Shown here piece after piece: positions 19,545-23,282 of a stretch of 64,000 nucleotides of DNA. The notes under the pieces were generated by a model. The model did no database searches. It was not told where the DNA came from and worked only from the letters and a program-made list of their open reading frames with translations. Positions within the stretch are counted from its first letter, which is position 1; the number at the start of each line of letters is the position of its first letter. Source of the DNA: Mucilaginibacter pineti (GTDB lineage: Bacteria > Bacteroidota > Bacteroidia > Sphingobacteriales > Sphingobacteriaceae); the NCBI RefSeq assembly GCF_900101875.1, contig NZ_FNAI01000002.1, forward strand, positions 744,001 to 808,000, in the 5' to 3' direction. A program made the translations under genes and the position numbers.

Positions 19545-20006
19545 ATGGAAAACACACAAGCAACAGCAGAAGTATTGAATGATCTGGTACAGATCAACAA
19601 TGACCGTATTGAAGGCTATACCCGCGCCTTGCATGATTTAAAAGATGGTGAAACTGATTTAAGGGCACTGTTTTTAAGTTTAATTGACGATAGTCGCCGC
19701 TATAAAGCGGAATTGGGTAAAGAGGTAGAAGTGTTAGGTAAAGACATTGAAACAAGTACTACCGTAAGCGGTAAAATTCACCGTGCCTGGTTGGATGTTA
19801 AGGCCGCATTTACCTCACACAATACTCATGATATTTTGGAGGAGTGCGAATTTGGAGAAGATGCAACCGTAAAGGCCTACAAAATGGCACTCGACGAAAA
19901 AAGCTTACCCGCCTTTTTACGCGAGCTGATTACCAATGAGCAAAACGAGATACTTGATGCACATGATGAGATCAAAGCATTACGCGACAGTGTTCATCAC
20001 GACTAA
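19545..20006 (+). CDS. DUF2383 (PA2169-type) ferritin-like helical protein
   Basis: This 153-residue protein is predicted to be a four-helix bundle of the DUF2383/PA2169 family, often linked to general stress responses. It is strongly helical throughout and acidic, with several Glu/His pairs that could bind metal, but there is no full ferritin diiron motif. Neighbours include a small lipoprotein and the ECF-sigma island, which suggests an envelope or stress context. A bidirectional terminator follows. Confidence 0.88.
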   Translation: MENTQATAEVLNDLVQINNDRIEGYTRALHDLKDGETDLRALFLSLIDDSRRYKAELGKEVEVLGKDIETSTTVSGKIHRAWLDVKAAFTSHNTHDILEECEFGEDATVKAYKMALDEKSLPAFLRELITNEQNEILDAHDEIKALRDSVHHD

Positions 20007-20642: not shown

Positions 20643-20861
20643 TTACATTTTTTTAGTAGTAGTGTCTTTTTTAGCTGAATCAACTTTAGCTGAATCTTTA
20701 GCAGCGTTCATTTTAGCAGCAGTATCCATTTTAGCTGAGTCCATTTTAGCTGAATCCATTTTTGCTGAATCTGCAGCAGCTGAAGAACCAGCACCTTTAC
20801 AAGCTGCAAATGAAGTAGCGATAGCTAAGGCAACTAAGCCTAATTTGAATGAATTTTTCAT
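20643..20861 (-). CDS. DSAK-repeat lipoprotein 1
   Basis: This 72-residue protein has a signal peptide and lipobox (SFAAC), giving a predicted lipid-anchored tail made almost only of Asp-Ala-Ser-Lys units (DSAKM repeated, then AAKDSAKVDSAKK). The ATG at 20861 (MKNSFKLG) is chosen; upstream codons fall in the promoter motif. It is a close paralogue of the gene at 21038. Its promoter region carries copy B of GGGTTAC-N15-GTATTAA. No enzyme function is plausible; a structural or sensor role in the envelope is inferred. Confidence 0.8.
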   Translation of the reverse strand: MKNSFKLGLVALAIATSFAACKGAGSSAAADSAKMDSAKMDSAKMDTAAKMNAAKDSAKVDSAKKDTTTKKM

Positions 20862-20898: not shown

Positions 20899-20928
20899 TT
20901 AATACCCAAAACAAAAAAAGGTAACCCA
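20899..20928 (-). promoter_or_regulatory. ECF-type promoter motif, copy B (lipoprotein 1)
   Basis: On the minus strand, TGGGTTAC (20928-20921) is followed after exactly 15 bases by GTATTAA (20905-20899). The ATG lies 37 bases downstream. The motif has the same halves and spacing as copies A, C and D. Confidence 0.8.
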
Positions 20929-21037
20929 TAATTTTAAAAGAAAAATTACAGATTACCTTTTTAATTAAAAAAAACTAAAAAATCAATAAGAAGAAGCTTA
21001 AGATTATACTTAAGCTGTCTTTTTATTAGTTTTAAAA

Positions 21038-21256
21038 TTATTTCTTAGTTGAGTCTTTTTTTACTGAATCAACTTTAGCTGCGCCAACTTTTGCAGCTGA
21101 ATCAACTGTAGTAGCAGAATCAGTTTTAGCTGAATCAACTTTAGCTGAATCAATTTTAGATGAATCACCACCTTCAGATTTTTTAGCACCACCACAAGCT
21201 GAGATAGAAACAGCGATAACTAAAGCTAATAAACCGGTTTTGAATGCATTTTTCAT
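21038..21256 (-). CDS. DSAK-repeat lipoprotein 2
   Basis: This 72-residue paralogue of the neighbour at 20643 has the same length and layout: a short signal peptide, lipobox (ISAC), a Gly/Lys/Glu linker, then Asp-Ser-Ala-Lys units (KIDSAKVDSAKTDSA...KVDSVKKDSTKK). It lies 176 bases upstream of its paralogue on the same strand and has its own copy (A) of the bipartite promoter motif. Tandem duplication followed by divergence of the repeat tract is likely. Confidence 0.8.
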   Translation of the reverse strand: MKNAFKTGLLALVIAVSISACGGAKKSEGGDSSKIDSAKVDSAKTDSATTVDSAAKVGAAKVDSVKKDSTKK

Positions 21257-21300
21257 TTTAAGAGAGTTTTAAATGTTAATTTTTTGATCGTTTTCATAGC

Positions 21301-21330
21301 TTAATACCGTTTACTTAAAAAGGTAACCCA
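21301..21330 (-). promoter_or_regulatory. ECF-type promoter motif, copy A (lipoprotein 2)
   Basis: On the minus strand, TGGGTTAC (21330-21323), 15 bases, then GTATTAA (21307-21301). The ATG of the lipoprotein gene is 44 bases downstream, leaving a short 5' leader. Confidence 0.8.
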
Positions 21331-21442
21331 CTAAATTTTAAAAAAAATTAATTCCCATAGATTTTATAGTTTTTATAGCTATCCGGAATGTTTTGACGGC
21401 AGTTGTTTTTATTGCAGTTTTGCCGCTTATTATTTAAAAGCG

Positions 21443-21471
21443 GGGTTACCTTGTTAAATTTGGCGTATTAA
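21443..21471 (+). promoter_or_regulatory. ECF-type promoter motif, copy D (distal, sigma gene)
   Basis: GGGTTAC (21443-21449), 15 bases, GTATTAA (21465-21471), 129 bases upstream of the sigma factor start. The spacer also contains TAAATTTG (21455-21462), a match to the housekeeping -7 box, so two overlapping promoters are possible. Confidence 0.75.
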
Positions 21472-21568
21472 CGGTAGTGTTATAATTTGGTGTATATTGG
21501 GTTCAAACATCAAAACCTTAGCCGGTATTTGACAATTTATTTAAGGCGAATGTTTTTTTTAATAAAAA

Positions 21569-21598
21569 TGGGTTACATTTTCGCATAAACAGTATTAA
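21569..21598 (+). promoter_or_regulatory. ECF-type promoter motif, copy C (proximal, sigma gene)
   Basis: TGGGTTAC (21569-21576), 15 bases, GTATTAA (21592-21598), ending 2 bases before the GTG start. Transcription from this copy would begin at or just inside the start codon, giving a leaderless or truncated message unless translation starts downstream. Confidence 0.7.
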
Positions 21599-21600
21599 GA

Positions 21601-22170
21601 GTGAATAAAGAGTTAAAGGCTTCGGCACCAACAGATAGCGAGATAGTTCTTGGTATACTTAATAATTCGGAAATAGTACTGAAAAGGTTATATACCACCT
21701 ATTTTCCGATGATATTGCAGTTAATTATCAATAACAACGGAAATGAGGATGATGCCAAGGATATTTACCAGGAAGCGATAATTGTTCTTTATAACAAGAT
21801 CAAATCTGGCGAGTTTGAATTAAGCAGTAAGCTTAAGACTTACATTTATTCGGTTTGCCGCAGGCTTTGGCTTAAAAGGCTGAGCCAGATGAACAGGTAC
21901 GGAGGGGATATCAGAGATTTTGAAGACCACCTGCCCGTCGATGAGGAACTTGATACACATAATGACAGGGATATACAGTTTACTAAAATGGAAAGTGCGC
22001 TCCAGTTATTAGGCGAACCCTGCAAAACCATTATGGAAGATTTTTACATACATAACAGATCTATGCAGGATATCTGTGAACGTTTTGGTTATACCAATGC
22101 CGATAATGCCAAAACGCAAAAATATAAATGCCTGCAAAGGCTGAAAAAATTGTTTTTTCAGCAGAAATAA
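21601..22170 (+). CDS. ECF-type RNA polymerase sigma factor
   Basis: This 189-residue sigma-70 family protein has region 2 (NEDDAKDIYQEAIIVLYNKI) at about residues 52-71 and a region 4 helix-turn-helix at the C terminus (MQDICERFGYTNADNAKTQKYKCLQRLKKL). It lacks a long region 3 and fits extracytoplasmic-function sigma factors of Bacteroidota. Translation probably starts at the GTG at 21601, as the in-frame upstream codons are stopped. The protease-linked putative anti-sigma gene follows 11 bases downstream, an arrangement typical of sigma/anti-sigma pairs. Two copies of GGGTTAC-N15-GTATTAA lie upstream, which suggests autoregulation. Confidence 0.93.
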   Translation: MNKELKASAPTDSEIVLGILNNSEIVLKRLYTTYFPMILQLIINNNGNEDDAKDIYQEAIIVLYNKIKSGEFELSSKLKTYIYSVCRRLWLKRLSQMNRYGGDIRDFEDHLPVDEELDTHNDRDIQFTKMESALQLLGEPCKTIMEDFYIHNRSMQDICERFGYTNADNAKTQKYKCLQRLKKLFFQQK

Positions 22171-22181
22171 CGAGTAAAGCG

Positions 22182-23282
22182 ATGAGTGATAACCTGATTT
22201 TGGAATTAATTGAACAGTACCTTAACGGCGATATGATGCCAGAGGAACGTGTGCAATTTGAGTTGCTTCGTAAAAAAGATGCAAGTGTTGACAGTAAAGT
22301 GGTAGAGCATAAGTTGTTCATTGGTTTAATGAAGCAGTACGGTGAGCGCATAGAGCTTGAAAAACGCTTAAACGCCATTCATGACGAAATTGACGTACAC
22401 ACGCTTAAAGAGGAATTGATGATTCACCCTAACTGGATAGTTAGCATGTGGAGGCACCATCATTCAAAAATATCGGTTGCGGCTTCTATAGCCATATTCG
22501 CTATATTAAGCACATTGTTTTTTACAGGTAAGCTTAATAACCATGATTCGAGCCTTGTACAGTTACGCGATGAAGTAAGTCGCATCAAAACCAAAACAGA
22601 TAATCTGGATAAAAAAACAAATAGTTTTATAAATCAAGCCCATGTAAAGCCTAAAATTACCAATCCTGGTAGTTTCAGGGGAACTGGTTTTGCTTTATCG
22701 TCAAACGGTTATATTGCAACTAACTATCATGTAATAAATAACGCCGATTCCATTTATGTTCAAAATGCAAACGGTGAATCGTTCCATGCGAAGGTTGTTT
22801 ATACAGAGCCGCAATATGATCTGGCCATTTTGCAGATCAATGATGCATCCTTTAAAGATTTGGGTAATGTACCTTACAATTTTAAAAGATCATTCAGCGA
22901 TTTAGGCGAGGGGGTTTACACATTTGGCTATCCTGGCGGCGAAGAAGTTTACGGACCCGGTTCGTTAACAGCATCCACCGGTTATTCTGGCGATACTACC
23001 GAATACCAGGTTTCTATTCCGGTTAATCCTGGTAATAGCGGCGGCCCGCTGATTGATGATAAAGGGAATATTATTGGCGTAATAAGTGCCAAACAAACCC
23101 AGGTGGCAGGTGCTGCTTTCGCAAAAAAATCTGCCTATCTATTAAAAACTATTCAAAATATCCCATCAGATTCTTTGAGTAAATCATTAACCTTAAGTAC
23201 CAAAAACACACTGGCCGGTTTAAGCCGTCCGCAGCAGTTAAAAAAGCTGAAGAATTATGTGTTTATGGTTAAGGTTTATTAA
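22182..23282 (+). CDS. Membrane protein: anti-sigma-like N terminus fused to periplasmic trypsin-like protease
   Basis: This 366-residue protein begins with an acidic helical region (residues about 4-75, LILELIEQYLNGDMMPEERVQFE) that resembles the N terminus of Bacteroidota anti-sigma factors. Next come one membrane helix (about 96-116), a probable coiled coil (about 122-150) and an S1-type protease domain (about 163-330). The catalytic triad is visible: His183 (TNYHVINN), Asp213 (YDLAILQI) and Ser286 (PGNSGGP). It starts 11 bases after the sigma gene; the ATG at 22182 was chosen over an upstream one that overlaps it. I infer that it binds the sigma factor and responds to periplasmic stress. 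The family link of the N terminus is by pattern only. Confidence 0.87.
   Translation: MSDNLILELIEQYLNGDMMPEERVQFELLRKKDASVDSKVVEHKLFIGLMKQYGERIELEKRLNAIHDEIDVHTLKEELMIHPNWIVSMWRHHHSKISVAASIAIFAILSTLFFTGKLNNHDSSLVQLRDEVSRIKTKTDNLDKKTNSFINQAHVKPKITNPGSFRGTGFALSSNGYIATNYHVINNADSIYVQNANGESFHAKVVYTEPQYDLAILQINDASFKDLGNVPYNFKRSFSDLGEGVYTFGYPGGEEVYGPGSLTASTGYSGDTTEYQVSIPVNPGNSGGPLIDDKGNIIGVISAKQTQVAGAAFAKKSAYLLKTIQNIPSDSLSKSLTLSTKNTLAGLSRPQQLKKLKNYVFMVKVY

Follow-up and report, generated by a model that had tools for sequence, protein, structure and literature searches.

The question raised by this locus is whether four copies of one bipartite motif, GGGTTAC-N15-GTATTAA, are the promoters through which an ECF sigma factor controls its own gene and its neighbours. 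The window, a stretch of 64,000 nucleotides from Mucilaginibacter pineti, contains a sigma factor gene (21601-22170, plus strand; 189 aa, GTG start), followed on the same strand by the gene of a membrane anti-sigma-like protein (22182-23282; 366 aa), while two small DSAK-repeat lipoproteins of 72 aa each are encoded on the minus strand at 20643-20861 (lipoprotein 1) and 21038-21256 (lipoprotein 2). It is very probable, from the sequence comparisons described below, that the four sites are promoters of this sigma factor and that it forms an autoregulon with the membrane protein and the lipoproteins.

Scanning both strands of the window returned exactly four zero-mismatch matches to the motif, and the next best matches carry three mismatches. 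In all four copies the spacer is 15 bases long, and the spacer sequences are all unlike. This bears out the initial annotation, which had described four copies with a fixed spacer and differing spacer sequences, upstream of both lipoprotein genes on the minus strand and twice before the sigma gene on the plus strand; three of its four coordinate pairs were one base too long. Copy A (20899-20927, minus strand), with a -35 box GGGTTAC and a -10 box GTATTAA, is the predicted sigma-ECF promoter of lipoprotein 1, whose ATG lies 37 nt downstream. Copy B (21301-21329, minus strand) is likewise the predicted promoter of lipoprotein 2, with the ATG 44 nt downstream. On the plus strand, copy C (21443-21471) is the predicted distal tandem promoter of the sigma operon, leaving a leader of about 125 nt, and copy D (21570-21598) the predicted proximal one, the GTG start codon standing 2 nt past its -10 box. 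The GTG codon had previously been assigned to copy C and the sequence TAAATTTG to copy D; the two attributions have to be exchanged, as copy D abuts the GTG and TAAATTTG (21455-21462, plus strand), a possible housekeeping -7 box, sits inside copy C. It is the single match to TAnnTTTG on the plus strand between 21331 and 21650; the minus strand between 20601 and 21700 holds no match to this pattern. With a plus-strand frequency of 0.89 TAnnTTTG matches per kb in the window, a single match proves little. An origin of the copies as a tandem or dispersed repeat was also considered and rejected, since the spacers differ and, outside the boxes, only an upstream T-tract is shared, plus CTTTT at the lipoprotein copies. 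The T-tract is common to lipoprotein and sigma copies and at the lipoprotein copies lies about 10-15 nt upstream of GGGTTAC.

The sigma gene product scores above cutoff with Pfam Sigma70_r2 (31.7 bits; cutoff 24) and with the NCBIfam ECF model TIGR02937 (65.3 bits; cutoff 42.9), and its profile matches the structures of SigW and SigH. It thus combines region 2, an ECF-type length and an ECF family model above cutoff, as expected of ECF (group 4) sigma factors. The fixed-spacing boxes and their geometry at the sigma gene are conserved, which on sequence comparison predicts an autoregulated promoter. For this comparison, 155 distinct sigma sites were assembled, identical sequences having been removed and a site being retained when a start codon lay no more than 20 nt after the box. 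A start codon follows GTATTAA at 2-3 nt in 140 of the 155 (136 GTG, four TTG and no ATG), and in the remaining 15 the first start stands elsewhere within the 20 nt. Codons 2-15 of the sigma genes show coding periodicity, with a mean entropy of 0.78, 0.82 and 1.32 at codon positions 1, 2 and 3. Another start for the sigma gene was considered and rejected. Where the offset is 3, an earlier opening of the frame is precluded by the TAA of the -10 box, which is then an in-frame stop; in the window, the first in-frame ATG, GTG or TTG beyond the GTG occurs 110 nt past the box, at about codon 37. From the position of GTG or TTG 2-3 nt after the box, the sigma mRNA is predicted to be leaderless. Should the -10 core be GTAT, transcription starting about seven bases further on would begin with the G of GTG. 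Of the two options entertained in the initial annotation, leaderless translation or a revised start, the first is thus upheld as a prediction, with the GTG conserved over the family, and misannotation is not borne out by the sequence comparison. The first start stands at +2/+3 in just one (L242) of nine loci that belong to two outlying families; in the other eight it falls 7-24 nt beyond the box, or the site is missing altogether. The geometry being lost there, leaderlessness is predicted within the family only.

The alternative that survives best concerns this same promoter. With the usual ECF discriminator, transcription from copy D could start inside the GTG codon, which is only 2-3 nt past the box, in which case the transcript would not be translated as sigma factor and the protein would be made only from upstream promoters, either copy C or a housekeeping one. 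The TAAATTTG within the upstream copy of the window would fit this reading, as would the frequency of tandem copies: a second exact forward copy lies within 300 nt upstream in 38 of the 154 distinct sigma loci with enough upstream sequence. Its spacer and position vary: Pedobacter records often have an N16 copy at 67-71 nt, and the copy of the window is N15 at 127 nt. However, 116 of the 154 loci have no exact second copy within these 300 nt. In addition, the tight +2/+3 spacing is difficult to account for without some coupling between transcription start and start codon, and the in-frame stop in the box at offset 3 bars an earlier opening of the frame. Synthesis from upstream promoters alone is accordingly regarded as unlikely. 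Copy C does not appear to serve a separate product, the only frames between copies C and D being short (at most 33 aa) and none lipoprotein-like. The preferred reading is that, where both copies occur, the likely layout is a distal, leadered self-promoter together with a proximal, leaderless one.

The lipoprotein genes provide a second view of the geometry. Across 96 loci collected independently of the motif (see below), 125 lipoprotein sites lie 19-56 nt before an ATG, with a median of 36 nt; five further exact minus-strand sites in these loci have no recognisable lipoprotein downstream. Both lipoproteins of the window give a weak, below-cutoff match to the NCBIfam PG1828 family lipoprotein model. 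A DUF2383 protein is encoded near the module at 19545-20006, with no exact motif copy ahead of it. The distances at the lipoprotein genes bear on a further reading, according to which a separate DNA-binding regulator would recognise the motif as its operator, and the two halves would not be the -35 and -10 boxes of this sigma factor. Binding of the boxes by the sigma factor is something we infer, and the bases directly after GGGTTAC differ between the two classes of sites, being CTTTT at the lipoprotein copies and nATTT at the sigma copies; both points favour this reading. An operator is nevertheless very unlikely: the motif is asymmetric and faces the gene, keeps a spacing of 15 or 16 and lies at promoter distance from 125 lipoprotein and 155 sigma genes. 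It also tracks the sigma gene across genomes.

At the genus level, the exact motif was found in 96 of 100 genomes, compared with 4 of 100 for a reversed control, and at the family level in 176 of 201 (control, 9 of 201). In the phylum sample it was present in 14 of 247 genomes (control, 6 of 247), and seven of these 14 belong to other families. When the presence of the sigma factor in family genomes was defined as a match at E <= 1e-15, the motif occurred in 175 of 187 sigma-positive genomes and in one of 14 sigma-negative ones (Fisher 7e-13, a value that treats genomes as independent though they are related). Of the 12 sigma-positive genomes lacking an exact N15 site, the two whose loci were retrieved (L120 and L124) both have perfect boxes with N16. 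The phylum sample gave a similar picture for the partner, that is, the membrane protein encoded downstream of the sigma gene: the full-length protein is present in 16 genomes of three families, seven more matching the profile in part, and the exact motif accompanies it in 13 of the 16, as opposed to one of the 231 others (Fisher 5e-18, with the same assumption of independence among related genomes). In one of these 13, G307, the exact motif is elsewhere in the genome and the site at the sigma gene has one mismatch. On these sequence comparisons, GGGTTAC-N15-GTATTAA is a predicted family-wide promoter, in a family whose members live in soil and water.

The 96 loci were gathered by the sigma or the partner protein alone, ignoring the motif, and comprise 80 named records and 16 phylum-sample loci; some are from the same strains as the genomes counted above. 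Among the best 80 of at least 584 matches, the closest named sigma factor is that of Mucilaginibacter sp. OK283 (94% identity; the closest relatives may be missing from this set), and the other named records belong to Pedobacter, Daejeonella, Solitalea and Sphingobacteriaceae. The best site near the sigma start was an exact N15 site in 88 of the 96 loci, an exact N16 site in four and a site with one mismatch in three; one locus (L245) had none. This collection also bears on whether it is the linked sigma factor that reads these promoters or a paralogue, another ECF factor encoded in the genome. ECF factors commonly recognise one another's promoters to some extent, and the genome of M. pineti itself encodes a second sigma factor that matches the query at E <= 1e-15. 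Reading by a paralogue is nevertheless highly improbable, since the motif accompanies the linked sigma factor and the partner protein in two other families as well, and 95 of the 96 motif-blind loci have, at this very sigma gene, an N15 or N16 site that departs from the boxes by no more than one base.

Searching the complete genome and related genomes, as the initial annotation had advised, established that the motif is not random: the 7.2 Mb genome contains the same four exact N15 matches and no others, none being obtained with the reversed pattern, and the motif is kept family-wide. The expected number of exact copies, calculated from the base composition of the window, is 0.0008 per window and 0.085 in 7.2 Mb. 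Although all four copies cluster in a stretch of 700 bases, neither chance nor a recent duplication at this locus is more than a negligible possibility, the first being ruled out by the whole-genome counts and controls and both being at odds with the differing spacers and the conservation of the boxes over the family. A relaxed pattern is not commoner than its control in this genome (258 matches with up to two mismatches; 279 for the reversed control), a point against the autoregulon reading. The statement that there was no other instance stands for the window; outside it, two further sites occur in the genome, one with perfect boxes and an N16 spacer, the other with an N15 spacer and one mismatched base.

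These two sites precede the genes of a lipoprotein and of a membrane protein. The N16 site (C29:108420-108449, minus strand; locus L254) is followed after 26 nt by the ATG of a lipoprotein of 292 aa, called DUF4349-like for a Pfam DUF4349 match on its first 130 residues (E 9e-5, below cutoff), and homologues in two other genomes have a perfect N16 site 17 and 77 nt before their ATG. The site with one mismatch (C18:171846-171874, minus strand; locus L266) is found at a small protein with three transmembrane helices. This protein is present in 13 of 61 genomes, in 12 of which, including M. pineti, a site with 0-2 mismatches lies just upstream; the exception is L283, whose best match stands at a distance of about 380 nt. 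Of 16 single-mismatch matches to a 13-base pattern in this genome, 11 are overlapped by an open frame of at least 50 codons. The site at C18:171846 is one of these 11, and its overlap is a frame artefact, the site being upheld by the homologues. Extending the pattern by CTTTT gave 21 matches with spacer 15 (control, 6) and 11 with spacer 16 (control, 16), the latter search having revealed the perfect-box site at L254. Of 61 genus genomes, 21 contain the exact N16 pattern, with 32 occurrences altogether (control, 6), several of which are the module's own lipoprotein sites. Genes found behind a site in at least two genomes encode DUF2459 and DUF4294 proteins and three membrane proteins without a family name, and the exact motif precedes the gene of a 96-aa AMPK1_CBM (glycogen-binding) protein in four genomes of a second family (L132, L133, L135 and L137). 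A number of exact sites have no clear downstream gene. In M. pineti, a site with two mismatches (C33:109022-109049, minus strand; locus L019) was also observed 78 nt before a different ECF sigma gene. Collectively, these comparisons support a predicted regulon that extends past the locus and also uses N16 sites.

The partner is encoded on the strand of the sigma gene in all 70 loci considered for this purpose (the 30 best genus matches and 40 chosen family loci). The 19 partner genes listed all start with ATG, unlike the sigma genes with their GTG or TTG at +2/+3. The protein consists of an N-terminal helical domain (residues 1-79), a transmembrane helix (85-114), a coiled coil (123-151) and a DegS/HtrA-like trypsin domain (166-325), an order recovered in the AlphaFold model of the whole protein (mean pLDDT 79.8, pTM 0.54). 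The protease domain matches Trypsin_2 (E 2.7e-25) and has DegS as its best PDB match (E 4e-12). It carries the catalytic His-Asp-Ser of the HtrA/DegS proteases, the triad H183, D213 and S286 being invariant in 19 of 19 aligned partners. The C-terminal PDZ domain typical of that group was not found (no Pfam match at E <= 1), the model closing instead with a short helix and a strand, and the DegP and DegS models score far below their NCBIfam cutoffs. In class I anti-sigma factors (ASDI), a cytoplasmic helical domain that binds the sigma factor stands at the N-terminus, ahead of a transmembrane helix. As for the N-terminal domain of the partner, its predicted helices span residues 3-15, 20-32 and 34-69, and it was modelled alone with a pLDDT of 85.4. 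Among 15 chains compared, it aligned best with the anti-sigma domains of RsiW (Z 6.5), RslA (6.0) and MucA (5.7), the next value being 2.9; by the tool's own warning, a helical domain with a Z below about 13 may not be informative, and values of 5.7-6.5 can arise by chance. A Foldseek search with this domain gave no significant match (best E 1.9), and the partner has no Pfam match to an anti-sigma domain. We read the partner, by inference, as a putative anti-sigma factor with a built-in DegS-like protease.

Taken together, co-occurrence, orientation, spacing and gene distance support the original proposal that these are boxes of this sigma factor, and that the sigma factor, its protease-fused partner and the two lipoproteins belong to one putative regulon. 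In the mechanism proposed here, the ECF sigma factor would read a -35 box GGGTTAC and a -10 box GTATTAA separated by 15 bases, 16 being tolerated, with two sites driving the sigma/anti-sigma operon in tandem and one site serving each small lipoprotein gene. In the resting state, the sigma factor would be kept at the inner membrane by the partner's N-terminal helical domain. An envelope signal would then activate the partner's own periplasmic protease domain, which would cut the periplasmic stalk, either in cis or between neighbouring molecules, and so begin the release of the sigma factor. Once free, it would raise the expression of its own operon, of the small lipoproteins and of the membrane proteins. 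Transcription from the proximal promoter would start at the G of the GTG and yield a leaderless sigma mRNA, and the distal copy would yield a leadered one.

An ECF sigma/anti-sigma autoregulon is in itself of an already known kind. In Escherichia coli, the envelope stress pathway sigmaE/RseA/DegS comprises an ECF sigma factor, a membrane anti-sigma factor, the periplasmic protease DegS, an autoregulated operon and an envelope output. The present system resembles it in having an ECF sigma factor, a membrane anti-sigma-like partner, a DegS-like protease, a predicted autoregulated operon and envelope proteins as predicted output. It differs in that the anti-sigma-like domain and the protease are in one polypeptide, with no PDZ domain found, in that the sigma mRNA is predicted to be leaderless, and in its boxes, those of E. 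coli sigmaE being GGAACTT and GTCTAA. A bolder reading, for and against which the odds are at present even, is that of a one-protein version of sigmaE/RseA/DegS, present family-wide. In it, the anti-sigma factor would bring its own site-1 protease, and a self-promoter joined directly to the GTG would make the sigma mRNA leaderless as a conserved feature of the design; about one locus in four would add a second self-promoter, which supplies a leader. In the FecI/FecR-type systems of Bacteroidetes, an ECF sigma factor is also followed by a membrane anti-sigma factor. The gene order is the same here, with an anti-sigma-like protein in second place, but the partner has no FecR domain match and the sigma factor reaches 45.2 bits with TIGR02985, the cutoff being 126.4. 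The dual membrane-spanning anti-sigma systems Dma/Das (ECF21) of Bacteroides thetaiotaomicron are, according to the account in PMC13088901, reported only from Bacteroidota. As described there, they share with the present locus a sigma factor adjoining an anti-sigma factor that has an N-terminal binding domain, a transmembrane helix and a large extracytoplasmic part. Dma, however, ends in a C-terminal beta-barrel behind a disordered tether (PMC13088901), whereas the extracytoplasmic part of the partner is a DegS-like serine protease. Finally, the SM6 promoters of Flavobacterium psychrophilum are also a Bacteroidota ECF class with a GT-containing -10 box; as presented in PMC9723704, they have a CGT box and type IX secretion targets, and the string GTTAC is absent from its main text. 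Among the open-access titles and abstract openings listed, no account of this sigma factor, motif or protease-fused anti-sigma factor appeared, which is weak evidence of absence.

The new elements would be a sigma message predicted to lack a leader, the tandem layout of its promoters, the joining of an anti-sigma-like domain to a protease, and an exact promoter definition with its regulon. For ECF sigma factors of Bacteroidota, few promoter specificities have been established (PMC7366714 states this for B. thetaiotaomicron), and a class I anti-sigma domain is reported in the genomic neighbourhood of only 6% of Bacteroidetes ECFs (PMC7406223). Against this background, the locus offers a precise, predicted family-wide promoter definition and a target list for a Bacteroidota ECF sigma factor, along with an anti-sigma-like protein that apparently has its own DegS-like protease. 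It also offers a conserved, predicted leaderless sigma mRNA in a phylum in which about 4-6% of messages are reported to be leaderless or to have very short leaders, leaderless mRNAs being given as 5.5% in F. psychrophilum (PMC9723704) and 5' leaders under 10 nt as about 3.7% in B. thetaiotaomicron (PMC7366714). If the prediction is true, a leaderless sigma message could make synthesis of this sigma factor depend on both envelope damage and ribosome state.
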